Below are positions 9,680-50,140 of a stretch of 64,000 nucleotides of DNA, piece after piece. This DNA comes from Methylovirgula sp. HY1. GTDB taxonomy: Bacteria > Pseudomonadota > Alphaproteobacteria > Rhizobiales > Beijerinckiaceae. Under the pieces are notes generated by a model. That model did not search any database. It had not been told where the DNA came from and saw only the letters and a list, made by a program, of their open reading frames with translations. The stretch lies in NCBI RefSeq assembly GCF_019343105.1, contig NZ_CP073765.1:124001-188000 (forward strand). Reading direction: 5' to 3'. A program made the position numbers and the translations under genes. The stretch's first letter is position 1; each line of letters starts with the position of its first letter.

Positions 9680-11302
9680 ATGATTCGTGTCGAAAACATC
9701 AGTAAGCAGAACGGCTCCCAGATCCTCTTTATCGAAGCCGCCGCGGCGCTCCAAAAAGGCGAGAAGGTCGGCCTTGTCGGTCCTAACGGGTCTGGCAAGA
9801 CGACGCTGTTTCGGATGATCGCGGGGCAAGAGGACCCCGACGAGGGTCAGGTGGCTGTCGATCGCGGCGTCACCATCGGCTACTTCAGCCAGGACGTCGG
9901 CGAGATGTCGGGCCGCAGCGCGGTGTCCGAGGTGATGGATGGCGCTGGCCCGGTGAGCGCCGTGGCTGCCGAACTGGCCGAACTCGAATCAGCCATGGGA
10001 GATCCCGACCGGGTGGACGAGATTGAAAGTCTCATCGAGCGATACGGTGAGGTGCAGGCCCGCTTCGAGGAACTGGACGGCTATGCCCTGGATGGCCGGG
10101 CGCGTGAAGTCTTGGCCGGCCTTAACTTCAGCGAGGAAATGATGGAGGGCGACGTCGGCGCGCTGTCCGGCGGGTGGAAGATGCGCGTCGCGTTAGGCCG
10201 CATTCTTCTGATGCGTCCCGATGCCATGCTGCTCGATGAGCCGAGCAACCATCTGGATTTGGAAAGTCTCATTTGGCTGGAGGGATTTCTCAAAGGCTAC
10301 GAGGGCGCCTTGCTGATGACCTCGCATGACCGCGAGTTCATGAACCGCATCGTTTCCAAAGTGGTCGAGATCGATGGCGGCTCTCTGACGACCTATTCGG
10401 GCAATTATGAGTTCTACGAGCAGCAACGCGCGCAAACCGAGAAGCAGCAGCAGGCCCAGTTCGAACGTCAGCAGGCGATGCTCGCCAAGGAAATCAAGTT
10501 CATCGAGCGCTTCAAGGCACGCGCCTCGCATGCCGCGCAGGTGCAGAGCCGGGTGAAGAAGCTGGACAAGATCGAACGGGTGGAGCCGCCCAAACGCCGC
10601 CAAACGGTATCATTCGAGTTCCAGCCGGCGCCGCGCTCCGGGGACGATGTCGTCAGTTTGAAGAATGTCCATAAAAGCTATGGCGCAAAGAGCATCTATG
10701 AGGGATTGAACTTCGTGGTGGGCCGCAAGGAACGCTGGTGTGTCATGGGCGTCAATGGGGCAGGCAAATCGACGCTGCTGAAGCTGGTTGCCGGCTCCAC
10801 GCAGCCGGATGTGGGGACGGTCGCGCTGGGTGGCAGCGTGAAGATGGGCTATTTCGCCCAGCACGCGATGGATCTGCTGGATGGCGAGCGCACGGTGTTC
10901 CAATCGCTGGAGGACTCCTTCCCCCAGGCGAACCAGGGCTCGTTGCGTGCGCTGGCCGGCTGCTTCGGATTCTCCGGCGACGATGTGGAGAAGAAATGCC
11001 GGGTGCTGTCGGGCGGCGAGAAGGCACGGTTGGTGATGGCGACGATGCTTTACGATCCGCCAAATTTTCTGGTGCTGGACGAGCCGACGAACCACTTGGA
11101 CATGGCGACGAAGGAGATGCTGATCACGGCGCTGTCGCAGTATGAAGGCACCATGCTGTTCGTTTCGCACGATCGGCACTTCCTGGCCGCGCTGTCGAAT
11201 CGAGTGCTGGAACTGACACCCGAGGGCGTTCACAATTACGGCGGCGGCTACACTGAATATGTCGCGCGCACCGGCCAAGAGGCTCCGGGCCTACGTAGTT
11301 GA
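9680..11302 (+). CDS. ABC-F family ATPase
   Basis: 540 aa with two ATPase domains in tandem and no membrane segment, the ABC-F layout. First domain: GPNGSGKTTL, LSGGWKMRV, MLLDEPSNHLD. Second domain: GVNGAGKSTL, LSGGEKARL, LVLDEPTNHLD. Between them is the helical linker (about residues 240-300) rich in Glu/Gln/Lys that reaches into the ribosome in this family. Length and linker fit the YbiT/EttA-like translation factors; antibiotic-resistance members cannot be excluded. The ATG at 9680 begins the domain; a GTG 6 bases earlier is possible. Confidence 0.9.
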   Translation: MIRVENISKQNGSQILFIEAAAALQKGEKVGLVGPNGSGKTTLFRMIAGQEDPDEGQVAVDRGVTIGYFSQDVGEMSGRSAVSEVMDGAGPVSAVAAELAELESAMGDPDRVDEIESLIERYGEVQARFEELDGYALDGRAREVLAGLNFSEEMMEGDVGALSGGWKMRVALGRILLMRPDAMLLDEPSNHLDLESLIWLEGFLKGYEGALLMTSHDREFMNRIVSKVVEIDGGSLTTYSGNYEFYEQQRAQTEKQQQAQFERQQAMLAKEIKFIERFKARASHAAQVQSRVKKLDKIERVEPPKRRQTVSFEFQPAPRSGDDVVSLKNVHKSYGAKSIYEGLNFVVGRKERWCVMGVNGAGKSTLLKLVAGSTQPDVGTVALGGSVKMGYFAQHAMDLLDGERTVFQSLEDSFPQANQGSLRALAGCFGFSGDDVEKKCRVLSGGEKARLVMATMLYDPPNFLVLDEPTNHLDMATKEMLITALSQYEGTMLFVSHDRHFLAALSNRVLELTPEGVHNYGGGYTEYVARTGQEAPGLRS

Positions 11303-12137
11303 GTTCGGAACTGAACGGTGAACGCCTTATCATGCCGCGGATAGGAACCGAGGTTGCCGGCCCCTAGAGCATGTTGCGAAAAAAATTAATCGACTTTTCT
11401 GTTTTGAAAACTCGGATATATCCGAGTTCTCATTGATGAGAACATGGCGGAACCGCGTCGTCGCCGCATGATCGCCGTGTGAGCTCACACGTGACGGGTT
11501 CACAGGCTCTAATTCCGAGCGGCCTCCGCTGATCGTCTTTTGCATCGCTATCCCTCCGTCTACTCATTGGCTGGGGGGCTGGGCTATGCCAATCGTCATC
11601 TTCGTAACCGATGTTAATGTATAATAAAGTTTCATCCTGATTTCGTGATAACAATTTGATTATATTTGCAGAGACAAGAATGAAATCCAGCTAATATTTC
11701 ATCCTCGCGGATGAAGTGCCGACACAAGCCTGTTGCCGTGAATTAATTGTGTCTCATACTGGAGCCGATTCGACACAACGGTCTTTAAAAGTTCATTCCG
11801 CAAAATGTCGATATCGGTTGAAGCTGCCCTCTCTGGTGCGCATTGGTGTGAAACGGCGCCATGACGTGACAGGCGACGGCCAGTGCGGCCCATGTCAGAG
11901 GCGGGTATCCCGCCCCTGCCCCGAATGGCCGCCATTCCCGCGAACGCTGGGCTCGCTCGAAAGCCGCCATCAATGAGACGCACTGGTGATCGGTGGCATC
12001 CTATTCACACTAACGAATGCGTTGGGTGATAGGTGTATTCCTGCTGTCACGACCTGATCTTTTGCCACTTTGGCGCGCCAGTCCCTAGGCAACAACAATC
12101 TCTGCGTAGTCGGCCATTGGCCCGATAAAGCGATAAC
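11303..12137. other. Gene-poor stretch with one interspersed repeat
   Basis: No convincing gene on either strand: the open frames lack ribosome binding sites and recognisable domains. It holds the repeat at 11366-11428, an AT-rich patch near 11610-11680, and a short inverted repeat around 11698-11712. It marks the left border of the IS-rich island. Confidence 0.5.
11366..11428 (+). repeat. Interspersed palindromic repeat, copy 1 (CGGATATATCCG type)
   Basis: Begins AGAGCATGTT, then an imperfect A/T-rich hairpin region, then a perfect 20-bp palindrome at 11409-11428 with core CTCGGATATATCCGAG. The element at 37200-37266 has the same three parts in the opposite orientation with nearly identical spacing. 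Confidence 0.65.
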
Positions 12138-12251
12138 TGGCCTGCTGCCGGTTTGATGGACACCGAGATTAGGTGTTTTATTAAACCGGAGGTGGCAGAT
12201 GGAACGACGGAAGTTTTCGCGGGAGTTCAAGGTCGAGGCGGTTCGGCTCAA
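12138..12251 (+). pseudogene. IS3-family left end with orfA start, truncated
   Basis: Starts with a terminal repeat TGGCCTGCTGCCGGTTT (12138-12154) and continues through GGACACCGAGATTAGG to an ATG at 12199 that begins MERRKFSREFKVEAVRL, the helix-turn-helix N-terminus of IS3-group OrfA. Homology stops after about 17 codons. The repeat is the inverted counterpart of 52493-52509, so both fragments derive from the same IS type. Confidence 0.75.
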
Positions 12252-12652
12252 TCCAGTCTGCCTTGTCGCTCAAACCAACTTGTTCAGATATTCCTTAAGA
12301 GGCCCGGGTGGGAATGGTTGTGATCCCGGGGAAATCCCCGCCAAATTTGCCGATGAGCGACCGGCCGGGGGTGCGGTCTATGTCGAGGCGGGTCGCGCCG
12401 CCAGCAGAGAGATCCGTGAGTTGTCACAAGCGCAAAATTTCTCTTCATCAGGCGCGCAAATCCGCGGGCGACGCTATTGATCGGCATCAAGGAAGCGGAT
12501 AGCGATTATCGATATATCTTCATTTGTTTTGTGCGCCGACCATGGTGCTGCGATAAGCGCAGAGTTCTGGGGTCGAGAGCTTCACCGCCACTGGGGATGT
12601 GTGAAGTGTTTCCGAAGCGGCAGGGACGCTCATTCTCCGGGTGCCTAGCGTC
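12252..12652. other. Stretch without recognisable gene
   Basis: Between the IS3 remnant and sufE. Open frames here are short and do not resemble known proteins; part may be residual mobile-element DNA. A GGGGAAATCCCC inverted repeat lies near 12328-12340. Confidence 0.4.
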
Positions 12653-13084
12653 ATGATCCTTGAAGAAATCGTCGAAACTCTCAAATCCCTGGACGCGTGG
12701 GAAGACCGCTACCGCTTTCTGATTGGGCTTGGCCGAAGTTTGGAGCCGCTAGAGGAAGCCGCCCATAACGATGCCAATAAGGTGGTCGGTTGCGTGAACC
12801 GGGTCTGGATCGTCACGCGGATCGAGCGGCCGAAGGGTAGTGAGCCGGTTATGACGTTTCGCGGCGACAGTGATGCACATATCGTGCGCGGTCTCGTGGC
12901 ACTCATTCTGGCGATCTATTCGGGAAATACGGCAACGAAGATCCTCGCCACAGATGCACGGGATCTGTTCAAGGAACTCGGCTTTTCGGCGCATCTGACA
13001 AAACAGCGGGGCAATGGCCTCTGTTATATGATCGAACACATCAAGAAGGATGCCCGCCGCGTTGTCATAGATACGGTAGCGTGA
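12653..13084 (+). CDS. sufE: SufE-family sulfur acceptor
   Basis: 143 aa from this ATG. SufE accepts persulfide from cysteine desulfurase SufS and feeds Fe-S cluster assembly. The family active-site Cys lies in NKVVGCVNRVW, and the rest (EDRYRFLIGLGRSL, HLTKQRGNGL) fits SufE across its length. A GTG 12 bases upstream is an alternative start. No suf partners are adjacent; the next gene is a radical SAM enzyme needing several Fe-S clusters, so a supporting role is possible but unproven. Confidence 0.88.
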   Translation: MILEEIVETLKSLDAWEDRYRFLIGLGRSLEPLEEAAHNDANKVVGCVNRVWIVTRIERPKGSEPVMTFRGDSDAHIVRGLVALILAIYSGNTATKILATDARDLFKELGFSAHLTKQRGNGLCYMIEHIKKDARRVVIDTVA

Positions 13085-13352
13085 AACTCCGACGAATCTG
13101 CTCAACCACTCTCTTCAGGGGCATTGTGCATCGAGCTTGCAGCCCAACGGCCTGCCTTAACTTTAACCAAGGCGAGCATGGTTTCGGGCCTATATTTAAT
13201 CTGTTGGCGTTTGCGGACGTGCGGAATGGGCTTACCCGTTGCGAAACGCCCAAGGCAGTGCGCAGCAGGGCCTAGCCCCCAGATCGGCAGGCGCCGAGTC
13301 GAAAATAACCAAAAAGGGATGGTCGCGGGGGCGCGAAGCCAGGAGCAGACCG

Positions 13353-14762
13353 ATGAAAGAATCGGCTTACAATCTTTGTGCCCAGGATCGTGACGGAACT
13401 TATTACCTGTTCAATACCAGGCGCGGTGCGGCGCATGTTCTCTCGGCTGACGCCTACCGAACTTACTGGGCGGCTGCCGCCGGTCGGTCGGCATTCGAAG
13501 GCGCTGAGGACGTTCTGCGCGAGCTGGCCAACAAGGGTTTTCTTGTGGAGAATGACGCCGACGAGCTGGCGGAAATAATGGCCGCACACGATGGAGCCCG
13601 ACAGAGCCGCGCGCGCCTCGAGGTTCTTATTGCGCCCACGATGGCCTGCAACCTCGATTGTTTCTACTGCTTCGAAGCAAATCGATATAGAGGGCGTATG
13701 AGCCCGGAAGTGCAAGCGAACACTGTGCGCCTCGTGCGCAGCTATTTCGAGTCTGGAACGAGGCAGCTCGATGTTACGTGGTATGGCGGCGAGCCGCTGC
13801 TCGCCCTTCCCGCAATTGAGCATCTGAGCCGCGAATTCGTCGCACTGTGTGACAGGTTCGGCAGCGAATATTCGGCGTCTATCGTGACAAATGGGACATT
13901 GATGACCGCGGCGAAGGCACGGCAACTCGCGTCCTGGAAAGTGAAGCGGGCCCAGATCACGCTCGATGGCGTCCCCGAGCAGCATGACGTCCGGCGCGTT
14001 CCGAAGAATGGAGGTCCGACATTTTTCCGGATCCTGGACGGGATTGAGGCAGCAGCGGCGCATATGCACGTCTGCGTCCGAATCAATGCATGCCGGCAGG
14101 TTGTAGCCCGCCTGGACGAACTGCTGCAGATTCTGGCCGCGCGTGGCCTCAATAGGGTCATCACTGTCTACGTCGCCCCGCTGCAGAAGGCGCAACACCA
14201 CAAGGCGGCAACGCAGGAGGCAGGCCAGGCGCGCCGGTCACCGGCCACCCGACTTGGATACGACGACCTTGATGCGCTCGATGGCCGCAGCGCCGCCGAT
14301 CTTGCGCTTACCTTTAATGACCTCCTGCGGGGATATGAGTTTGCTGTCGCCGATCGTTTGCCTCACCCGCGCTGCACGACGTGTATGGCCGACAGAGAGC
14401 ACAGCTGGCTGATCGAGGCGAACGGAGACATCCAGAAATGCTATTGGACCGCGGGGCTTCGGGCCGAGGCGGTAGGGCGACTCACGGAACAGGGGATTGT
14501 CCTTCAGACCCCCTCTGGTAAGTGGCGAGATTGGACCGATTCCAGAAACTCGGAATGCCTGACGTGCGTCATGTTGCCGGTCTGCTTGGGTCGCTGTCCG
14601 CTGAACCACTTGCGGCACGATTCGAACTACTGCCCGCCCTTCAGATATAACTGGATGGGCGCGCTGGCGCGCGCAACCGGAGCGGCCAACGCGCAGCTCG
14701 CTCCTGCCCGATTGCCATTGGCCCCCGAGAAAGTGAAGGAACTTAAGTTCACAATCCAATGA
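13353..14762 (+). CDS. Radical SAM/SPASM peptide-modifying enzyme
   Basis: 469 aa. An N-terminal domain of about 90 residues (with a YYLFNTRRGAAHVLS stretch) precedes the radical SAM core, whose cluster motif is CNLDCFYC near residue 106; WYGGEPLL is the SAM-binding GGE motif. The C-terminal SPASM region has Cys groups CTTCMADREH, QKCYW, CLTCVMLPVCLGRC and a final NYC for auxiliary clusters. The layout matches enzymes that modify ribosomal peptides or proteins. AGGAG lies 8 bases before the ATG. The stop overlaps a 33-codon ORF (14759) as ATGA, so that peptide is a candidate substrate. Confidence 0.85.
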   Translation: MKESAYNLCAQDRDGTYYLFNTRRGAAHVLSADAYRTYWAAAAGRSAFEGAEDVLRELANKGFLVENDADELAEIMAAHDGARQSRARLEVLIAPTMACNLDCFYCFEANRYRGRMSPEVQANTVRLVRSYFESGTRQLDVTWYGGEPLLALPAIEHLSREFVALCDRFGSEYSASIVTNGTLMTAAKARQLASWKVKRAQITLDGVPEQHDVRRVPKNGGPTFFRILDGIEAAAAHMHVCVRINACRQVVARLDELLQILAARGLNRVITVYVAPLQKAQHHKAATQEAGQARRSPATRLGYDDLDALDGRSAADLALTFNDLLRGYEFAVADRLPHPRCTTCMADREHSWLIEANGDIQKCYWTAGLRAEAVGRLTEQGIVLQTPSGKWRDWTDSRNSECLTCVMLPVCLGRCPLNHLRHDSNYCPPFRYNWMGALARATGAANAQLAPARLPLAPEKVKELKFTIQ

Positions 14763-16394: not shown

Positions 16395-16837
16395 ATCATG
16401 CGGCTTTCTGGGAAGAACCATTTGTAGGCGCCATTCGCACTGCGCCCGATCGACGTGCCACAAACCACGCACCCACCTGCGCCCGGCTCCGTCCGCGCGG
16501 GTGTATAACCAAGCACCCGACGACGCCTCAACTCCGCCGCCAGAGGCTCTATCGGAACGTCACGCCGAAGGGTGAACTGCGGCCCTGGCGGCCTCGGCCT
16601 TCTCGCCCGATGGAGGCACCGGCCACATCTCATCCTGCGCCGTCACGTGCTCATATCAGCAAGGCGCTATGATACGAGAATGGGGCACGCGGCTTCGCTG
16701 TCGACCTCCACGGCAGAGGACTTTTGATAATGGTGCAGTCGTCTTCTGAAACCGACAATGGAGGCGTCCGCAGATGACATAAGACTATACGGAAGTCCTA
16801 TTTGAAATTAGGGTTCCGAAGTGCATCGGAGAACCTC
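16395..16837. other. Stretch without recognisable gene
   Basis: Separates the KAS III gene from the CbpA-like precursor. I see no supported gene, RNA or IS end. A promoter for the precursor gene is expected in the last 100 bases but no clear -35/-10 pair stands out. Confidence 0.4.
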
Positions 16838-16975
16838 ATGAAGCATACCATCGACACGAAGTCCGGAGCGCCGACCAAACCTCGGCCGGACGTAATCGCC
16901 ATTCGCAAGACCTGCGCCGCCGAAGGTACGGGCTTGTCGCACTACGTCCTTATGGACAAGCAGGTGAAACGGTGA
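16838..16975 (+). CDS. CbpA-like modified-peptide precursor
   Basis: 45 aa. GGAGA lies about 6 bases before the ATG. The basic N-terminal half looks like a leader; the C-terminal half contains the single Cys26 followed by AEGTGLSHYVLMDK (28-41). As I recall the family, the GTGLSHYVLMD block is the hallmark of the small precursor CbpA that always accompanies radical SAM enzyme CbpB. The stop overlaps the next gene's GTG start. Product and modification are unknown to me. Confidence 0.72.
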   Translation: MKHTIDTKSGAPTKPRPDVIAIRKTCAAEGTGLSHYVLMDKQVKR

Positions 16976-18417
16976 CGATGCCGACGCATCCGGCGTCGGA
17001 GGGGGGCCTCGCGTGGGGCTCCCTAACCACCCCGCTCCAGCCTTTCGAGATCGACCATCCCACCCATATCGCCGTCGTCGAACCGGACACGGCATTCTGG
17101 GGTCTGGTTCGAAAGGAAAAGCTAGCCGAGACGCTGTCGGGAAGCGAGTTGCTCGACACCTACCACGCCAAGGCCGAAGCCTTCAGGCGCGAGATGGACA
17201 TGCTGCGGTTTCACCTGAAACCATCGGCCATCTATTTCAATCCGACCGAGCGCTGCAACCTCAACTGCTCATATTGCTATATTCCCGAGCAAATGCGGCG
17301 CGGCGGCGAGCATATGACCACGGCCACCGTGCTCGATGCACTCGAACGTCTGCACAGCTATTTTCGTGGTCATATGCCGGAAGGCCGTTTGCCGCAGGTC
17401 ATCTTCCACGGCGCCGAGCCGATGCTGAACCGCGACGCGATCTTCGCTGGCATCAAAGCCTATGGCGACCGTTTCCGCTTCGGCGTGCAGACTAACGCCA
17501 CGCTGCTCGACGACGAAGCGGTCAATTTTCTCACCGCCCACGGCGTCGGTATTGGCCTGTCACTCGACGGCCCGGTGGCCGCCGTTGCCGACCGCACACG
17601 CCGGCGCTGGAACGGCAGAGGGGTGTTCGATCACGTCGTTCGTGCGATCGAGCGGCTCGATGGTTATCTGGGCTACAACGTCATATGCACCATGACGACC
17701 GAGAACCTGCCGCACCTGGCAAAATTGGTCGATTTCTTCCACGCTCGCCGAGTGCCCGCCTGTATGCTTAATGTCACCCGCTGTACCCTGCCGGGAGCCC
17801 GCATCGTGCGTGGGAGCGACGACGACGTATCGAGATACTACATTGCCGCTCTGGAGCGGACGCATCAGCTCTACCGGGAAACCGGGCGTAAGCTGGTCGT
17901 GGCCAATTTCGCGAACATTCTGATCGCCATATTGGCGCCGACGGCGCGCCGGCTGATGTGCGACATCTCCCCGTGTGGGGGCGGTCGCAGCTTCTTCGCC
18001 CTTGCTTCCAACGGCGATCTCTTCCCTTGCAGCGAATTCATCGGGCTTCCCGCCTTCAACGGGGGCAATCTGTTTCGCCAATCGGTCGAGGAGATCCTCG
18101 ACAGTCCGGCGTTCCGCCTGGTTACCGGCCGCAAAGTTGAGGATGTGGCTGGCTGCAATACTTGTCCGATACGCCATTTCTGCGGCTCTCCTTGTCCTGC
18201 CGAGGCGCATGAAATGAACGGCGGCATGAAGCAGAAAGGCGCTTTCTGCCGGTTCTACGAGGAGCAAGTACGTTTCGCCCTGAGGCTGATCGCCGATGGG
18301 CGTCACGAGGACTTCTTATGGGATGGATGGGATGATGGCACAGAGGAGACCTGCGCGATTGGCCGGCCTGAAATGGCGCCATCACCATCAATCACCGTTA
18401 GCCATGGATTCGAATGA
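16972..18417 (+). CDS. CbpB-like radical SAM/SPASM peptide maturase
   Basis: 481 aa from the GTG that overlaps the precursor stop (GTGA); an ATG lies two codons later. Radical SAM cluster motif CNLNCSYC near residue 100, followed by FHGAEPML in the GGE position and QTNATLL. The C-terminal SPASM part includes CDISPCGGG, LFPCSEF, and CNTCPIRHFCGSPCPAE with a last GAFC. The N-terminal ~75 residues are a family-specific extension. Overlap with the precursor gene and motif order make this the enzyme that modifies it. The usual additional partners of such systems are not adjacent. Confidence 0.82.
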   Translation: MTMPTHPASEGGLAWGSLTTPLQPFEIDHPTHIAVVEPDTAFWGLVRKEKLAETLSGSELLDTYHAKAEAFRREMDMLRFHLKPSAIYFNPTERCNLNCSYCYIPEQMRRGGEHMTTATVLDALERLHSYFRGHMPEGRLPQVIFHGAEPMLNRDAIFAGIKAYGDRFRFGVQTNATLLDDEAVNFLTAHGVGIGLSLDGPVAAVADRTRRRWNGRGVFDHVVRAIERLDGYLGYNVICTMTTENLPHLAKLVDFFHARRVPACMLNVTRCTLPGARIVRGSDDDVSRYYIAALERTHQLYRETGRKLVVANFANILIAILAPTARRLMCDISPCGGGRSFFALASNGDLFPCSEFIGLPAFNGGNLFRQSVEEILDSPAFRLVTGRKVEDVAGCNTCPIRHFCGSPCPAEAHEMNGGMKQKGAFCRFYEEQVRFALRLIADGRHEDFLWDGWDDGTEETCAIGRPEMAPSPSITVSHGFE

Positions 18418-20157: not shown

Positions 20158-20171
20158 TTAACCAAGGTCAA
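20158..20171 (+). promoter_or_regulatory. FNR/Dnr-like box upstream of pqqA
   Basis: TTAACCAAGGTCAA departs from the TTGAC-N4-GTCAA consensus by one base. A TGCTAT element at 20191-20196 could be the -10; the start would then be near 20203-20206 with the box centred near -40, the class II activator position. It is 83 bases upstream of the pqqA ATG. A second dyad, TTGTA-N5-TACAA, lies at about 20127-20141. Confidence 0.5.
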
Positions 20172-20254: not shown

Positions 20255-20329
20255 ATGAATTGGATCGCGCCTGAATACTGTGACGTCCGCCTCGGCTTCG
20301 AGGTCACCGCCTACGTATATGTTCGCTGA
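20255..20329 (+). CDS. pqqA: PqqA-type precursor peptide
   Basis: 24 aa, the normal PqqA length. GGAGGA lies 7 bases before the ATG. The peptide has the family Trp3, Pro6, Tyr8, Arg12-Leu-Gly-Phe and the essential Glu16-Val-Thr-Ala-Tyr20 (ExxxY), the pair that PqqE crosslinks to form the PQQ skeleton. It resembles the pseudomonad-type PqqA more than the rhizobial type. A Cys at position 9 and a second Tyr at 22 are notable. A hairpin follows directly, then pqqD and pqqE. Confidence 0.85.
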   Translation: MNWIAPEYCDVRLGFEVTAYVYVR

Positions 20330-20337
20330 GTGAAAAC

Positions 20338-20382: not shown

Positions 20383-20670
20383 ATGGACGACGAGAGGCCC
20401 CTGCGTCTTGAAGACGCCATAGAGATCAGCCCTACGCATCACTTTCGTTGGGAGGAACTGCAACAGGCGCATGTGCTGCTCTATCCCGAAGGGATCGTGA
20501 AGCTGAACGAGACGGCGGCAGTGGTCATTCGCTCCTGTGCGGGCGCGAAATCGATTGGGATCGGCGCGGTCGAACTCGGGAGTTTGTACGGCCGGACGGA
20601 TCTTGACGCGGAAATTCTAAAGTTCTTGGAGGTGGCACGTGCCAAAGGCTGGATCAGGGTTAAGTCTTGA
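20383..20670 (+). CDS. pqqD: PqqD-type peptide chaperone (RiPP recognition element)
   Basis: 95 aa. It matches PqqD: HHFRWEELQQAHVLLYPEG, VKLNETAAVVIRSCAG, and a C-terminal helix. PqqD binds the PqqA leader and presents it to PqqE. AGAGGA lies 7 bases before the ATG. The last 30 bases overlap the pqqE start in another frame. Confidence 0.88.
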   Translation: MDDERPLRLEDAIEISPTHHFRWEELQQAHVLLYPEGIVKLNETAAVVIRSCAGAKSIGIGAVELGSLYGRTDLDAEILKFLEVARAKGWIRVKS

Positions 20671-21787
20671 TGGCTTGGGAATGCCTTTGTGGCTTGTGCT
20701 CGAGCTGACCTACAAATGCCCGTTAAAATGCCCCTGGTGCAGCAATCCGGTCGAATTCGATCACTATCGGAATGAGCTGACCACTGCGGAATGGAAAGCC
20801 GTCATGCAGGAGGGCCGCAAGCTCGGCGCCCTGCAACTCGGATTCACCGGCGGCGAGCCGATGCTGCGCCGCGATCTCGAGGAGCTCGTCGAGGAGGCGA
20901 CCAGCCTCGGCTATTATACGAATCTCATAACCTCCGGCGTTGGCCTCACTCTTGACCGTCTGCGGGCGTTGAAAGCGGCCGGACTAAAACAAGTCCAGCT
21001 GAGCATCCAAGCCTGCGACCGCGAGCTCAACGAACGCCTCGTTGGACTCGACGTTTATGATCACAAGATCACGATTGCCCGTGCCATAAAGGCCGAAGGC
21101 TTTCCGATGGTGCTCAACGTGCCAGTGAGCCGATACAACATCGAGCATACCGCTGCATTCATCGATCTAGCCGCAGATCTCGGTGTCGAATATGTCGAGT
21201 TTGCCAATCTCCAATATTACAATTGGGCGCTGCTGAATCAGGCTGAATTGTTGCCGACGCGAGACCAAATCGAGCGGTCCGAAGCCCTGGTGCGTGAGGC
21301 GCGAGAACGCCTCGGCAAACGCCTGACGATCTATTTCGTCGTTCCGGATTATTACGATGATCGTCCGAAAGCCTGCATGAACGGATGGGGTTCGATCCAT
21401 TTGACGATCGCACCCGACGGCACGGCGCTGCCCTGCCAGGAAGCGCGGCTCATCAAAGGCATCGAATTCCCCAACGTCCGCGACCATGATCTCGCCTGGA
21501 TCTGGCGCGAATCGCCGGGATTTAAAAAATTCCGCGGCGATTCGTGGATGAAGGAGCCATGCCGGAGTTGCGACGAGCGAGGGAAGGATTTCGGCGGTTG
21601 CCGCTGCCAAGCCTTCCTTTTGACTGGCGATGCATCGAATACCGACCCTGTCTGCGCAAAATCGCCTAATCGGGCCGCTGTCGACACTTTGATCGCGGCG
21701 GTTCAGCAGCGCAGCGAGGCGAACTCTGCCTCTCTCGTCATGCGCGAAGGAAAGGGACAGACCGTTCACTTCGAGGTGGACGAATGA
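20639..21787 (+). CDS. pqqE: PqqE-type radical SAM/SPASM enzyme
   Basis: 382 aa, typical PqqE length. Cluster motif CPLKCPWCSNP, GGEPMLRRDL, then the long conserved block around PDYYDDRPKACMNGWGSI, GTALPCQEAR, and EPCRSCDERGKDFGGCRCQ with final DPVCAKSP, which carry the auxiliary cluster ligands. PqqE forms the C-C bond between Glu and Tyr of PqqA. GTG at 20639 is chosen because GGAGGTGG sits just upstream and the family N-terminus (MPLWLVLELTYKCP) follows at the right distance. The C-terminal ~35 residues after the last Cys are a divergent tail. Confidence 0.92.
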   Translation: MPKAGSGLSLDGLGMPLWLVLELTYKCPLKCPWCSNPVEFDHYRNELTTAEWKAVMQEGRKLGALQLGFTGGEPMLRRDLEELVEEATSLGYYTNLITSGVGLTLDRLRALKAAGLKQVQLSIQACDRELNERLVGLDVYDHKITIARAIKAEGFPMVLNVPVSRYNIEHTAAFIDLAADLGVEYVEFANLQYYNWALLNQAELLPTRDQIERSEALVREARERLGKRLTIYFVVPDYYDDRPKACMNGWGSIHLTIAPDGTALPCQEARLIKGIEFPNVRDHDLAWIWRESPGFKKFRGDSWMKEPCRSCDERGKDFGGCRCQAFLLTGDASNTDPVCAKSPNRAAVDTLIAAVQQRSEANSASLVMREGKGQTVHFEVDE

Positions 21788-21858: not shown

Positions 21859-22365
21859 ATGGATTTTGCAATCCTCGACATTGCGGCCCGATGGCTGCAC
21901 ATCTCCAGCGTCGTGCTTTGGATCGGGCATAATTGGTCGAACGTCGTGCACACGCCGGCATACCGGCGTGTCTTGCCAGAGGATCCGCCCGAAGCCATTC
22001 ACGATGTATTCGTCGCAACATCGAAGCGCGAACATGGCATCTTTCGTTACGCCGCTTTGGTCGTCTGGGCGACCGGCCTCGTCATGTTGTGGTATCGCCA
22101 CGAAATCATTGATGCCTTCACACTTTCAGGAAAGGCAATCCTGATCGGTCTCGGCGCTTGGACGGGAACGGCGATGGTGCTGAACCTGTGGCTGATCATG
22201 TGGCCCCACCAAAAAAAGGTGTTGGGCTTCGTCGAGGCGACAGTTGAAGAGCGTCTTCGCTGCACCCGCGTCACCTTCCTGTCCTCCCGCACAAACAGCT
22301 TCCTCGCCGCTGCGACGGTGTTCTTAATGATTGCCGGAGCACATGGGACTTTTCTCTTCGCATGA
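21859..22365 (+). CDS. Four-helix membrane protein, paralogue of 5961-6434
   Basis: 168 aa, four hydrophobic helices. Helix 1 reads ARWLHISSVVLWIGHNW, similar to the haem-type membrane domain of PuuD (urate oxidase N-like). The ending AGAHGTFLFA nearly repeats that of the nar-linked protein. AAGGA precedes the ATG. Position between pqqE and the SerC-like gene suggests it serves the pathway, perhaps as a membrane electron acceptor for the PyrD-like enzyme; this is inference. Confidence 0.72.
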   Translation: MDFAILDIAARWLHISSVVLWIGHNWSNVVHTPAYRRVLPEDPPEAIHDVFVATSKREHGIFRYAALVVWATGLVMLWYRHEIIDAFTLSGKAILIGLGAWTGTAMVLNLWLIMWPHQKKVLGFVEATVEERLRCTRVTFLSSRTNSFLAAATVFLMIAGAHGTFLFA

Positions 22366-22375
22366 CGGGCCGGTC

Positions 22376-23440
22376 ATGAAGGCCTTCAGTTTCGCGTCTG
22401 GTCAATCTGTCCTGCCACCGACTGTCGTGGCCGAACTGTGCCGCGACTTGGCGGAATGGCGTGACAGCGGCCTCTCGCTTCTTGAGCTGCCCTTCACGCA
22501 TGCGGATTTTGGGGACTTGCTCGCGCAGGCTCAGGGCGACCTGCGTGCCTTGCTCGGACTTTCGGATTCTTATCGCGTCCTATTTCTCCAGGGTGGCGCC
22601 TCCGCGCAATTCGGACTGCTACCGATGAATCTCCTCGGCAGTAAAACCGGCGTCGACTATGTGGAGACGGGACATTGGTCGCGCCGTGCGATGGCCGCGG
22701 CGGCGGCCTGGTGCGATGTGCACGTTGTTGCGCAAGGAGATGGGGTCTCATTGCCAGCAACGTGGCATCTATCGGCCGATCCCGCCTATTGCCACCTCAC
22801 CACCAATGAAACTGCCGAAGGGCTGCAGTTCCATCATATACCGGAGACTGGCGACGTCCCGCTCGTGGCGGACATGACTGCAGATTTCCTCACTCGTCCT
22901 ATTTCCGTCGAACGATTTGGCCTCATATACGCGAGCGCCCAGAAAAACCTCGGTGTGGCGGGTCTTACCATTGTCGTGCTCAACGCCAAGCTCCTCGGCC
23001 GTGCACGCCACGGCGTACCGGCGCCGTTCAACTATACTTTACAGGCGGACGCCGGCAGCCGCATCAACACACCGCCGACCTTCGCCATCGCCGTCGCCGC
23101 CAAGATGCTCACCTGGCTGAAAGCGAATGGTGGGCTCGAGTCCGTAGGAGCGGGAAATGCTCACAAGAGCGCGAAGCTTTATGCCGCGATCGATGCAGAT
23201 GGCTTCTACCAATGCCCTGTACAGCCGCAGGACCGCTCTCTGCTGAACGTGCGATTCCACCTTCCGACTTTGCACCTGAATACGATCTTCCTCGAGGAGT
23301 CGGAAGCGCACGGCTTCCTCCATCTCCAAGGCCATCCGTCGATCGGTGGAATTCGCGTGTCGCTCTACAATGCCGTGCCGGAGGAAGCGGTCGATGCTCT
23401 CATCGTCTTCATGGACGACTTCCGCCGTCGAAGAGGCTGA
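22376..23440 (+). CDS. SerC-like PLP aminotransferase with altered substrate site
   Basis: 354 aa, the length of phosphoserine aminotransferase, and collinear with it. PLP residues are kept: Trp101, Asp166 in VADMTADF, Gln189-Lys190 in SAQKNLG, Asn231-Thr232. The residues that hold the substrate phosphate in E. coli SerC (His41, Arg42, Arg329) are replaced here by Phe40, Thr41 and Pro321; only the His before the last one (His320) remains. The reaction is therefore probably not phosphoserine transamination. ATG 22376 is chosen as the start of homology, 10 bases after the previous gene; an ATG at 22343 would overlap it. Same operon as pqqADE. Confidence 0.85.
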   Translation: MKAFSFASGQSVLPPTVVAELCRDLAEWRDSGLSLLELPFTHADFGDLLAQAQGDLRALLGLSDSYRVLFLQGGASAQFGLLPMNLLGSKTGVDYVETGHWSRRAMAAAAAWCDVHVVAQGDGVSLPATWHLSADPAYCHLTTNETAEGLQFHHIPETGDVPLVADMTADFLTRPISVERFGLIYASAQKNLGVAGLTIVVLNAKLLGRARHGVPAPFNYTLQADAGSRINTPPTFAIAVAAKMLTWLKANGGLESVGAGNAHKSAKLYAAIDADGFYQCPVQPQDRSLLNVRFHLPTLHLNTIFLEESEAHGFLHLQGHPSIGGIRVSLYNAVPEEAVDALIVFMDDFRRRRG

Positions 23441-23494: not shown

Positions 23495-24199
23495 ATGAAG
23501 CCCCACACGACCGCAATGGGCCTGACATTCGCCAATCCGGTCGGTTTGGCGGCCGGATTCGATCGCAGCGGGCAGCAAGCTGCGGCGCTCTCCGAACTTG
23601 GCTTCGGGCATATCGAAATCGGCACTATCGTCGCGGGGCAGGCCGCCATGATCGCGGCTCCGAGGTGCGGATCGCGCCTTGGGATCAACATCGGCAGCGG
23701 CCGGAGGGGGCTCGATCCGCAGGTGATCGAAGATTATGCGACAGCACTTCGGGCGGCCTATGATTCGGCGGACTATGTCTGCGCCAATCTCAGTTCGCCC
23801 TTTGCGGGCCGGGACGGTGACAGCTTCGGGGTGGATCAGTTGATCAGCCGGATGAAACGGGATGTTGAGGCTTGCGCGGCGCAGACCGGCCGACGCGTTC
23901 CCCTCCTTGTCAAAGTCGAGGGCGGTTTCAAAGGTTCTCCTTTGCCCGCAGCCATTGCCGCAACGCGGCATCATGGACTCGACGGACTCGTACTTGTCTC
24001 CGCTTGCCTCGAGCGCATCGCCGCCATCTGTCAATATCTCAACGGCGCGGCGGTCATATCGGTCGGCGGCATCGCGTCGGGCGCAGACATCAGCGCGCGG
24101 TTGGCCGCCGGTGCTTCACTCGTGCAAATCTACACGGCCTTTGTCCGCGATGGCGCTATAGGTTTGCATCGAATGCTCACGGAATTGGAAGCGTTGTGA
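23495..24199 (+). CDS. PyrD-like flavoprotein with altered substrate site
   Basis: 234 aa, about 100 shorter than class 2 dihydroorotate dehydrogenase. The FMN parts remain: NPVGLAAGFD, GFGHIEIGT, PLLVKVEG, VGGIASGAD, GASLVQIYTAFV. The catalytic Ser is present in NLSSP (98-102). The N-terminal quinone/membrane helices are absent, the NRMGFNN loop that binds orotate is missing, the N-T after SSP is Phe103-Ala104, and the SNTT motif is S-A-C (169-171). So it is likely an FMN oxidoreductase of a different substrate. It lies 54 bases after the SerC-like gene and overlaps the next ORF as GTGA. Confidence 0.82.
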   Translation: MKPHTTAMGLTFANPVGLAAGFDRSGQQAAALSELGFGHIEIGTIVAGQAAMIAAPRCGSRLGINIGSGRRGLDPQVIEDYATALRAAYDSADYVCANLSSPFAGRDGDSFGVDQLISRMKRDVEACAAQTGRRVPLLVKVEGGFKGSPLPAAIAATRHHGLDGLVLVSACLERIAAICQYLNGAAVISVGGIASGADISARLAAGASLVQIYTAFVRDGAIGLHRMLTELEAL

Positions 24200-30596: not shown

Positions 30597-31607
30597 CTAT
30601 GCAGCAACATGGACTACATTTTGTGGCTTGCCGTTCGCGAAGGCCTCGATGATCGTCATCGAAGACTCAAGAATACGGTGCATGGCCTCGATTGTATTGT
30701 ATGCGTTATGCGGCGTCACCAACACGTTCGGGTGATTTAGGAGGACGTGATCGGCGACCAATGCACGGAAATCGACAGCGTCTTTGTGATCCGACCGGAA
30801 AATTTGCGCTTCGTCGCCAATCATGGGTTCTTGCGGCAACACGTCCAACCCGGCGGCCGAAACCCGCCCGGTCGCAAGCGCCCGCACCAGTGCTTCGGTA
30901 TCGACGATGGTCCCCCGCGCCGTATTAATGAGAACTGCACCCGGCTTCATTAGGAGGAACTCGCGATCCGACAAAAGATGATGCGACGCGGCGGTCTCCG
31001 GCAGGTGCAGCGTTACGAAATCCGCGGATGCCAAAAGCTCATCTAGTCCGAGATAGCGAAAGCCGATGGATCGTGCCGCTTCGATGTTGGGCCGAACGTC
31101 ATGAGCGACGATAATCATCCCGAAGCCTTTTGCGATCTCAATGGCACGAAGACCAATTCTGCCCGTGCCGATCACCCCGAGCGTCTTGCCGCGCAGCTCG
31201 ACGCCTCTAAGACTTTCATGATCGAACTTGCCCTCTCGGCTGTGTTCAACGGCGGCGACGATGCGGCGATTGATGGCTAGCAGTAGTGCGAACGTGTGTT
31301 CCGCGACTGTATAGTCGCCATAGTCCGGGATGTTGCAAACGGTGACGTTGTGGTCGTGACAATATTTTAGATCAATATGGTCAAATCCGACCGACCGAGT
31401 CACGATTAGTTTCAGCGAGGGAAAAAGCTCCAGCACGCGATCGTTCAGAGTCGAAGCGATAAACGTGGAAATCACTTGGCTATCTGCGTAGGCTGCCGCA
31501 GTGTTCTCATTAAGCGCGTTCACGCTGCAGCGCAGATCATGATTGCTCAAACGTTGTCGGAGGGCTGCTTCTTCCCAGTTTTCCGTTTCGAAAATTGTCA
31601 CCTTCAT
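30597..31607 (-). CDS. D-2-hydroxyacid dehydrogenase (NAD-dependent)
   Basis: 336 aa. NAD-binding motif GVIGTGRIGLRAIEIAKGFG, then the Arg motif INTARGTIVDTEALV, Glu in the QEPMIGDE region, and His in TPHNAYNT, the catalytic Arg-Glu-His set of the family. It is closest in pattern to D-lactate dehydrogenase type enzymes; the substrate cannot be read from sequence. It is monocistronic or the last gene of the minus-strand cluster, 54 bases after the AhpD-like gene. Confidence 0.85.
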   Translation of the reverse strand: MKVTIFETENWEEAALRQRLSNHDLRCSVNALNENTAAAYADSQVISTFIASTLNDRVLELFPSLKLIVTRSVGFDHIDLKYCHDHNVTVCNIPDYGDYTVAEHTFALLLAINRRIVAAVEHSREGKFDHESLRGVELRGKTLGVIGTGRIGLRAIEIAKGFGMIIVAHDVRPNIEAARSIGFRYLGLDELLASADFVTLHLPETAASHHLLSDREFLLMKPGAVLINTARGTIVDTEALVRALATGRVSAAGLDVLPQEPMIGDEAQIFRSDHKDAVDFRALVADHVLLNHPNVLVTPHNAYNTIEAMHRILESSMTIIEAFANGKPQNVVHVAA

Positions 31608-47224: not shown

Positions 47225-47350
47225 AAACAATACCATTTTGGCGAGTTATTTCTTCGAATATGAGTTTGATAGAACCTCTATTTCGCAAACATGCAGCCAT
47301 AATGCCTACCGTATGACCGCTGACTCAACGTCATTCTGTTGACGAATGAA

Positions 47351-50140
47351 ATGTCCGATGCTGTAACGCGTCGTCGTTCATTTTACGAAGGCTATCCGGT
47401 GTCGATTGAGGATCTGAATTTTCTGTTCTCGAAAGAAATCGAGCCGCTCTTCTGGTTTCCCGATCGGCTTGGGCGAAAAAGCGCGTGGTGGGGGCACGTC
47501 CCTTTCGCATCTTGGCTCACCGCAGTGAGCAAGCCCCGTGTGCTTGTTGAATTAGGTGCACATGATGGTGTGTCTTATGCGGCTTTTTGTGAAGCGGTTT
47601 TGAAATCACAGAACGAGACCCGTTGTTACGCTTTCGATGGTTCGGCAAGCGAGATGTCCGGGCGGTCGAATGGTACCGCTTTCGACAAACTCGAGGAGTT
47701 TCATGATCGGCGATATGCGGCGTTTTCACATCTTCTGCCGATGAAGAGTGGCGAGGCCTGCAAGTGCTTTGAGCCTGGAACCATCGACCTTTTGCACATA
47801 GGCGACTGCCCATCCTATGACGTGGCGCGGAACGAATTGGAAACCTGGCGACCGAAACTTTCGGATCGGGCCATCGTTCTCATCCACAATATTCATGAGA
47901 CCGGCAAAGAGTCCGGGGTTGGGCGTTTCTTTCGCGAGCTGAAATCGGAGCTGCCCGCTTTCGAATTCTTGCATAGCCAAGGTCTTGGCATTGTCGTCAT
48001 CGGCGCTGACGCGCCTGCCGCTGTGCGAAATCTTAGTGAACTGGCGGATGATCGCGCCATTGCCGCAATACGCGAACGGTTTTCGCATTTTGGTGCGCGC
48101 TGGGCGGCCGAGGATACGATCCGACAGAAGAATGAACAGATTGCGCAATTGAAGGATGAGTTGGCCTCGCGCGCAGCGGGCATTGAAGAACTGAAAGAAT
48201 GCCTGGAACAGGTTCGCGAATCCGCCGCGTTCAAGGACGCGCAAATTGCCGAACATCGGTATCATCTTGAACGAATCAATGCGTCGCCATGGTGGCGACT
48301 TGGCATGTGGGTCGCCCGGCGGATCGAGACTCTGCTTCGGATAGCAAAGATCCAATCAACAACGGATAATGTCCCGCGCCAGTCTTTACAGACCAATCGC
48401 TCTTATCAAAAATGGGTCGAACTCTATGACACGATCTCTGAACAGGATAGGCAGGCGATCAAAGTCCATATCCAAGGGCTTGCCTATCAGCCGCTGATTT
48501 CAATTGTGATGCCCGCTTATGAGACGCCGGAAAATTTGCTCCGCGAGGCAATCGCTTCTGTTCGTTCTCAGCTTTATCGTAATTGGGAATTGTGCATCGT
48601 CGATGATGGTTCACCGTCGCCGACGGTCGCGCGCGTATTGGCGGAGCTGTCAGCATGCGATTCCCGGATCAAATGGATGCGGCGCGAATCAAACGGACAT
48701 ATTTCAGAGGCAAGCAATTTTGCCTTGACGTTGGCGAGCGGCGAATTTGTTGCGCTCATGGATCATGACGATCTTCTGGCGGAACACGCGCTGTATGAGG
48801 TCGTGGCCGAGCTGAACAGGCACCCTGATGCCGATCTCATCTATTCTGATGAGGATCGGATCAACGATGCCGGTGTTCGCCATTCACCTTATTTCAAGAC
48901 GGATTGGAACCCAGAGCTGTTTTTGGGCCAGAATATGATCTCTCATCTTGGTGTGTATCGAAGATCGATCTTGGATAAGGTTGGTGGTTTCCGCGTCGGT
49001 TATGAGGGCAGCCAAGATTATGATTTGGCGCTGCGCGTCGTAAATGTGACGCGCAATGAAAAGATCAGGCATATTCCTGCCGTTCTTTATCATTGGCGCG
49101 GGCGTTCAGTGAACGCCTCTTTCTCCGAGACCCAACTTCAGCAGTGTGTCACGGCTGCGCGCCGCGCAAAGGCGGATTATTTTTCCGCGCGTGGCGAAGC
49201 CGCCAAAGTCCTTGAGAATCCGTTTGTTCCTTCTTGGGAGTGGATTCGTAGGCCAATCCAGTCTCCCTCACCTCTAGTGTCACTCATCGTTCCCACCCGT
49301 AATCGGCATGATCTGCTCGGGCCCTGTTTGGATGGCTTGCTCAATCGGACAAACTATCAGCCAATCGAAGTAATAATCATAGATCATGAAAGTGATCACC
49401 CTGAAACGATTGCGCTTCTTGATCGGTGGCGAGCCGACGAGCGGGTTCGAATCATACGTTATGAAGGAGATTTCAACTATTCGGACATGAACAATAAGGC
49501 CGTTACGTATGCGCGCGGTGAAATGATCGGCCTGATCAACAACGATATCGACGTGATCAATTCGGATTGGTTGTCGGAAATGGTGTCGCTTGCGGCGCTC
49601 CCGGAAAATGGTGCGATTGGCGCGAAGCTTCTCTACCCGAATGATCTTGTGCAGCACGCTGGAGTTGCCCTGGGGATGACCGGGGGTATCGCAGGCCACA
49701 TGTATTTGAATGCTATGAGACATGAAATTGGGTATTTTGGCAGGCTTGTGTTGAGCTCCAACGTGTCAGCCGTGACGGGTGCCTGCCTCGTCGTCCGAGC
49801 CGCCGTGTTTGAAGAGGTAGGGGGCCTAAACTCGGTCGATCTACCTGTTTCATACAATGATGTTGATTTGTGTCTTAGGATCCAGGCGAAGGGCTATCGA
49901 AATGTCTGGACTCCATTTGCACTTCTTTACCACCATGAATCGCCATCACGTGGGCCGGATACAGCTCCTGACAAAATTGATAGGGCTCGGCGTGAGGTGG
50001 AGTACATCCGACGCACATGGGGAGATCATCTCAATAATGACCCATTTTTCAATCCGAATCTGTCATTGCAATCTTGCTCATTTGAGCTGGCTTTTCCGCC
50101 CCGAAGAGTGAAGCCGTGGCTCTGTGTTGGCGTGGAATGA
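47351..50140 (+). CDS. Multi-domain glycosyltransferase (methyltransferase-like plus two GT2 domains)
   Basis: 929 aa. An N-terminal domain (about 50-230) with VLVELGAHDGVSYAAFCEA and IDLLHIGDCPSYDV is a class I methyltransferase-like fold. A coiled coil (about 260-310, IRQKNEQIAQLKDELASRA) follows. Then two GT2 domains: PLISIVMPAYETPENLLREA with WELCIVDDGSP, and PLVSLIVPTRNRHDLLGPCL with VEVIIIDHES-like text (IEVIIIDHES). Likely adds several sugars of a surface polysaccharide. The ATG at 47351 is preferred to an upstream TTG. The second GT2 ends in a FALLYHHESPSRG region. Confidence 0.88.
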   Translation: MSDAVTRRRSFYEGYPVSIEDLNFLFSKEIEPLFWFPDRLGRKSAWWGHVPFASWLTAVSKPRVLVELGAHDGVSYAAFCEAVLKSQNETRCYAFDGSASEMSGRSNGTAFDKLEEFHDRRYAAFSHLLPMKSGEACKCFEPGTIDLLHIGDCPSYDVARNELETWRPKLSDRAIVLIHNIHETGKESGVGRFFRELKSELPAFEFLHSQGLGIVVIGADAPAAVRNLSELADDRAIAAIRERFSHFGARWAAEDTIRQKNEQIAQLKDELASRAAGIEELKECLEQVRESAAFKDAQIAEHRYHLERINASPWWRLGMWVARRIETLLRIAKIQSTTDNVPRQSLQTNRSYQKWVELYDTISEQDRQAIKVHIQGLAYQPLISIVMPAYETPENLLREAIASVRSQLYRNWELCIVDDGSPSPTVARVLAELSACDSRIKWMRRESNGHISEASNFALTLASGEFVALMDHDDLLAEHALYEVVAELNRHPDADLIYSDEDRINDAGVRHSPYFKTDWNPELFLGQNMISHLGVYRRSILDKVGGFRVGYEGSQDYDLALRVVNVTRNEKIRHIPAVLYHWRGRSVNASFSETQLQQCVTAARRAKADYFSARGEAAKVLENPFVPSWEWIRRPIQSPSPLVSLIVPTRNRHDLLGPCLDGLLNRTNYQPIEVIIIDHESDHPETIALLDRWRADERVRIIRYEGDFNYSDMNNKAVTYARGEMIGLINNDIDVINSDWLSEMVSLAALPENGAIGAKLLYPNDLVQHAGVALGMTGGIAGHMYLNAMRHEIGYFGRLVLSSNVSAVTGACLVVRAAVFEEVGGLNSVDLPVSYNDVDLCLRIQAKGYRNVWTPFALLYHHESPSRGPDTAPDKIDRARREVEYIRRTWGDHLNNDPFFNPNLSLQSCSFELAFPPRRVKPWLCVGVE

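Follow-up and report, generated by a model that had tools for sequence, protein, structure and literature searches.

The canonical route to PQQ is encoded by pqqABCDE(F). It requires oxygen at PqqC, and its product retains both nitrogens, that of Glu and that of Tyr. Mycofactocin biosynthesis (MftA-F) involves a small peptide, a PqqD-like chaperone, a PqqE-like radical SAM enzyme, a peptidase and a step at an alpha-amino group. The peptidase, MftE, belongs to the creatininase family, and the alpha-amino group is removed oxidatively by MftD, which is a flavoprotein and not a PLP enzyme. To our knowledge, the mycofactocin pathway has no SerC homologue. A cluster with the order pqqADE-puuD-serC-pyrD was noted in Hyphomicrobium denitrificans in 2025 (Hden_0548-0553, PMC12423496). 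According to the available part of that paper, it is suggested to complete PQQ synthesis without oxygen and is regulated by SoxR/sHdrR; a like cluster is listed for Halomonas, Stutzerimonas, Methylophaga and Azoarcus, several of the hosts being denitrifiers. No further mention of the cluster came up in the literature search, and a search on missing pqqB/pqqC found nothing.

The window, a 64,000-nt stretch of the genome of Methylovirgula sp. HY1, contains a tight same-strand run of six genes, pqqA'-pqqD'-pqqE'-X-serC'-pyrD', of which serC' is the fifth. The features of the locus are as follows.

20158..20171, + strand: FNR/NNR-like box upstream of pqqA', TTAACCAAGGTCAA, which departs from TTGAYN4RTCAA at one position
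20256..20330, + strand: pqqA', 24-aa precursor MNWIAPEYCDVRLGFEVTAYVYVR with a Glu-x3-Tyr core; TIGR02107 38.1 bits (cut-off 20)
20383..20670, + strand: pqqD', PqqD peptide chaperone; TIGR03859 71.8 bits (cut-off 46)
20639..21787, + strand: pqqE', PqqE radical SAM/SPASM enzyme; TIGR02109 508 bits (cut-off 381)
21859..22365, + strand: X, membrane protein of 168 aa, similar to the PuuD N-terminal part; Pfam Urate_ox_N 38.4 bits
22376..23440, + strand: serC', class V aminotransferase with P39-F40-T41 and P321 in place of the phosphate-binding S-H-R and R
23495..24199, + strand: pyrD', shortened class-2 dihydroorotate dehydrogenase-like flavoprotein; Pfam DHO_dh 92.7 bits

The gene set is the same as in H. 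denitrificans, whose SerC is described only as a putative phosphoserine aminotransferase (PMC12423496, available part). Relative to the canonical pqq operon, PqqA', PqqD' and PqqE' pass the respective models (TIGR02107, TIGR03859, TIGR02109), and X, SerC', usually an M48 peptidase and sometimes PyrD' are found instead of pqqB and pqqC, both of which are absent from the cassette. The pqqA' gene is shorter than the length limit of the open reading frame list but matches its model. PqqE' is the second PqqE copy of the genome, with 44% identity to the canonical one and 61-67% to the cassette PqqE of the ten other loci described below; at one of these (L035), two pqqE' genes lie in tandem (11474-12493 and 12623-13705, - strand; 47% and 63% identical to that of the window). 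The cassette resembles mycofactocin in the types of its elements. The mycofactocin peptide is different, however, and the test for a mycofactocin radical SAM maturase stays below its cut-off (TIGR03962, 104.9 bits against 265). In X, the alignment reveals conserved histidines (His14, His24 and His59, plus His117 in seven of eight sequences); its predicted structure is of low confidence (pLDDT 60).

The serC' frame encodes 354 aa (ATG at 22376, stop at 23440); an alternative upstream start, TTG at 22331, is possible. The protein shares 41% identity with E. coli SerC over 358 alignment columns, so that the full-length alignment claimed in the initial annotation is borne out, with every named position matching, and it is 41-46% identical to gammaproteobacterial SerC. 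Its AlphaFold2 model (pLDDT 84) superimposes on 4XK1 and 1BJN with a TM of 0.95-0.96, and the fold and PLP residues are common to SerC' and the class V phosphoserine aminotransferases (1BJN, 4XK1, 8A5V). The PLP residues said to be kept indeed are: Trp101, Asp166, Lys190 and Asn231-Thr232 correspond to W102, D174, K198 and N239-T240 of E. coli.

The differences lie on the substrate side. In the complex of human PSAT with phosphoserine, the phosphate is held by His44*, Arg45*, His335 and Arg336, and the alpha-carboxylate by Arg342 and Trp107 (PMC10031235). By alignment, these residues are His41, Arg42, His328, Arg329, Arg335 and Trp102 in E. coli. In the window protein, the PLP and alpha-carboxylate residues are intact and three of the four phosphate ligands are replaced, with Phe40-Thr41 at the positions of H41-R42 and Pro321 at that of R329. 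The proposed loss of the phosphate site thus holds for these three residues but not for the fourth, since His328 is retained as His320. In addition, a new basic residue, Arg229, occupies the position of E. coli M237, two positions before Asn231.

For comparison, 11 cassette SerC' (that of the window and ten relatives from other genomes) were set against nine canonical SerC. The SerC' proteins form one clade (support 100/99) that is divergent, with a mean identity of 55%. In all 11, Ser-His-Arg (S40-H41-R42) is changed, to Pro-Phe-Thr in ten and to Pro-Phe-Gly in one. The Arg329 column reads P, R, S, P, P, P, K, P, A, S, A. Its loss, correctly called for the window, is therefore not uniform across the clade: the residue is absent in 10/11, with Arg in L003 and Lys in L032. 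M237 is Arg or Lys in ten of the 11, two residues before Asn239, and W102, T153, D174, Q197, K198, N239, T240, H328 and R335 are kept throughout. Among the 68 columns that are invariant in the canonical proteins, only five are altered in every SerC', namely S40, H41, R42, I154 and S176. As three of these five form the phosphate-binding motif, the exchanges are not a matter of chance. The other two, I154 and S176, adjoin the PLP-binding T153 and D174.

The same genome holds a separate, canonical serC, as a search for such a copy established (serC_2, G000:C1:1352855-1353973); it exceeds the cut-off of the alphaproteobacterial model TIGR01365 with 677 bits. The cassette gene is therefore free to differ, and its identification as the housekeeping serC was rejected. 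Several homologues were likewise not accepted as cassette members. L005 (47% identical to the query) lies in a gyrA-serC-pheA-hisC context with a normal SHR motif and serves as a canonical control, as do L006-L009 and Thiothrix.

These data bear on two readings in which the enzyme has not been recruited to a new substrate. It might still be a phosphoserine aminotransferase, a spare or anaerobic SerC that binds the phosphate through His320 and the new Arg229, as the conserved histidine, the basic residue near the site and the match to the 3-phosphoserine transaminase model NF003764 (402 bits, cut-off 253) would allow. SerC' falls below the cut-off of the strict equivalog TIGR01364, however (362 bits against 443.6), as do the proteins of L028 (357.8) and L034 (418.5), and the loss of His41-Arg42 in the whole clade and of Arg329 in nearly all of it, the canonical serC and the constant company of pqqA'D'E' make this reading very improbable. 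Alternatively, the loss of substrate-binding residues could reflect decay or a non-catalytic protein. This is scarcely credible, as the reading frames are intact and the PLP residues, Lys198 included, are invariant over so divergent a clade. The initial annotation had favoured a changed substrate over decay. As far as activity can be judged from sequence, that view is upheld by the fixation of the exchanges next to invariant PLP and alpha-carboxylate residues, by the separate canonical serC and by the strict occurrence of serC' within the pqqA'D'E'-X-serC' cassette. Compared with SerC, SerC' lacks the phosphate-binding His41 and Arg42 and mostly Arg329, and has gained Arg or Lys at 237.

PyrD' displays the same pattern as SerC', with the cofactor side kept and the substrate side changed. 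It scores 136 bits against NF003652 (cut-off 267) and is under every PyrD cut-off. In the alignment, the FMN-side motifs are retained and the orotate-binding Asn motifs are lost (NLSSPF/VSACLE versus NISSPNT/TNTT in 1F76); part of the class-2 dihydroorotate dehydrogenase sequence is missing as well. PyrD' thus looks repurposed, too.

The order pqqA'-pqqD'-pqqE'-X-serC' is common to all 11 loci, which stem from several families; ten of these were reached via SerC' itself and only that in G460 independently, via X. The search with X covered 398 genomes from the phylum and returned one further strong match, the G460 locus. As this locus carries the whole run from pqqA' to serC', the association of X with serC' is borne out independently of the search via SerC'. 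PqqA' follows a motif like xWxxPxx[CY]-LRLGFEVTAYxYxR in 11/11 cassettes. An M48 peptidase gene comes next after the cassette in eight loci (L003, L004, L028, L030-L034) and is located nearby in L035. In L004, a creatininase-family-like protein (11157-11900, + strand; recognized by eye) is encoded directly 3' of the cassette; it was not seen in the other cassettes. The pyrD' gene is part of 5/11 cassettes (window, L004, L028, L034, L084), and in L003 an acyl-CoA dehydrogenase gene is inserted between pqqE' and X. Other plasmid PqqE matches at 54-55% (Thiodictyon, Paraburkholderia) belong to canonical pqqBCDE operons and were excluded.

The conserved order also speaks to the idea that SerC' transaminates another small amino acid, perhaps to provide a building block, and has no more than its regulation in common with the pqq genes. 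In H. denitrificans, the cluster lies next to anaerobic fatty-acid genes, ubiquinone genes and genes for NO reductase under one regulator, which would fit (PMC12423496, available part). This explanation is nevertheless improbable, given that serC' stays within the pqqE'-X-serC' order despite unrelated neighbourhoods, a 46-kb plasmid included.

In the class sample, serC' was found in 8/385 genomes. Neither the ten further genomes searched in the genus nor the 25 others searched in the family contain it, and vertical inheritance within the genus was rejected on this ground. One cassette resides on the 46-kb mobilizable plasmid of Acidibrevibacterium fodinaquatile, and the window sits on a 278-kb contig that carries repABC genes. 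From these locations and the missing serC' in genus and family, the cassette probably moves between lineages.

Several observations bear on a possible link between the cassette and oxygen supply. At the start of the window, narGHJI is encoded, and a gene for a Crp/Fnr-type regulator is located just upstream of the cassette. Across the class, narG is present in 5/8 cassette genomes versus 57/377 others (p = 0.0035; p = 0.0026 with cassette genomes counted by family), a statistic that covers eight cassette genomes, four of them from one family. In L028, a perfect FNR-type box is located upstream of pqqA', at a place like that of the window box. Such boxes occur in only two of ten loci (window and L028), and the box was rejected as proof of regulation, as chance occurrences are common in the window. 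The cassette product is perhaps made when oxygen is scarce or absent.

The gene for a CbpB 'cobopeptide' radical SAM/SPASM enzyme (16972-18417, + strand; TIGR04163 719 bits, cut-off 375) precedes the cassette by a few kb; immediately before it, a 57-aa frame (16802-16975) could be a candidate peptide substrate. The gene at 13239-14762 (+ strand) encodes a protein like a radical SAM/SPASM peptide maturase, its best match being TIGR04463 (236 bits, below the cut-off of 525). Together with PqqE', these make three RiPP-type radical SAM enzymes within 9 kb. A large protein with glycosyltransferase-like parts (47339-50140, + strand) has one part that is weakly MftF-like (110.8 bits, cut-off 280). 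Near serC', on the opposite strand (30597-31607), a D-2-hydroxyacid dehydrogenase similar to phosphoglycerate dehydrogenase is found (209.8 bits, cut-off 454).

The nine cassette genomes differ in their remaining pqq genes. Six of them (G000, G060, G120, G185, G335, G412) encode pqqB and pqqC elsewhere. In G000, the genome of the window, a second pqqC (G000:C1:1940597-1941304, 347 bits, over the cut-off) lies apart from the canonical pqq operon, at a distance of about 1.2 Mb; a second pqqB was not found in that genome. In the other three (G061, G241, G297), no pqqB or pqqC over the cut-off was found, and the cassette PqqE is the sole PqqE. These are fragmented metagenome assemblies, so genes may be missing: G297 is 96% complete with 8% contamination, G241 is 88% complete, and for G061 no completeness is given. 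G061 encodes a XoxF (890 bits to 6DAM) in which the vicinal CC and NRG motifs are kept; its gene shares a contig with the cassette, at a distance of about 9 kb, and is accompanied by apparent partner genes. In G297, the quinoprotein is an ethanol dehydrogenase (862 bits to 6ZCV), and G241 has a quinoprotein fragment only. The enzymes of G061 and G297 are of the ordinary type with a vicinal Cys pair. On the simplest interpretation, the cassette by itself suffices to provide PQQ or a compound that works in its place, although genomes without pqqBC may also take up PQQ from outside.

SerC' is probably a PLP enzyme that acts on alpha-amino acids with a non-phosphorylated substrate, in a PQQ-type pathway independent of PqqB and PqqC, and the cassette as a whole probably makes PQQ or a closely related cofactor with neither of the two enzymes that normally act late. 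By family membership, PqqE' and PqqD' would cross-link the Glu and the Tyr in PqqA', and a peptidase, M48 in most cassettes, would release the cross-linked Glu-Tyr amino acid. SerC' would then act on an alpha-amino group, either in this bulky bis-amino acid itself or in a ring intermediate further along the pathway. Since Arg327, Trp101 and Lys190 are kept, the substrate should still be an alpha-amino or alpha-keto acid, whose alpha-carboxylate would be held by Arg327 and Trp101. Phe40 and Arg229 would line the former phosphate pocket. To judge from its residues (Phe40, Thr41 and His320, with Arg/Lys229 near in sequence), this pocket suits a larger aromatic, carboxylate-bearing substrate, and the cross-linked Glu-Tyr amino acid would be a fitting example. 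The role of the oxygen-using PqqC would fall to X, together with PyrD' where present, which would deliver electrons from the ring system into the quinone pool. The product would be PQQ or a close relative usable by quinoproteins of the XoxF or ethanol dehydrogenase type.

As PQQ retains both nitrogens, plain deamination by SerC' cannot give PQQ unless the nitrogen is returned. This leaves three possibilities: a PLP reaction of SerC' other than net transamination, a return of the nitrogen that was removed, or a new cofactor that contains less nitrogen than PQQ. In its widest form, the proposal is tentative: an oxygen-independent route of the PQQ class, in which a SerC-derived PLP enzyme and a PuuD-like membrane protein, joined in some cassettes by a PyrD-like flavoprotein, take the place of PqqB and PqqC, is possible and may yield a deaminated quinone cofactor and not PQQ. 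A product other than PQQ, formed if one alpha-amino group of the cross-linked Glu-Tyr is taken off by SerC', as MftD does oxidatively for mycofactocin, would share the repurposed SerC with the preferred reading. It would account for the aminotransferase in every cassette and for the lack of pqqB and pqqC, the makers of PQQ proper, and a second product would explain the full canonical set in six cassette genomes. We consider it rather unlikely, as the quinoproteins of G061 and G297 are ordinary and no other source of PQQ was seen in these genomes.

Measured against the available part of PMC12423496, the cluster is known in passing, and the altered SerC, the M48 partner, the PqqA' motif and the cassette-only genomes are added here; the lost phosphate site, the M48 peptidase and the cassette-only genomes are not mentioned in that part. 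The residue exchange sharpens a vague annotation of the cluster into a testable claim, namely that the cassette 'serC' would not serve serine biosynthesis and would act on a pathway intermediate. It also corrects misannotations such as that of WP_240319371.1 on the Acidibrevibacterium plasmid, which is labelled phosphoserine transaminase. The cassette-only genomes point to clean test organisms. Given the oxygen requirement of PqqC, the cassette may bear on the question of how denitrifying and low-oxygen users of PQQ enzymes are supplied with PQQ.
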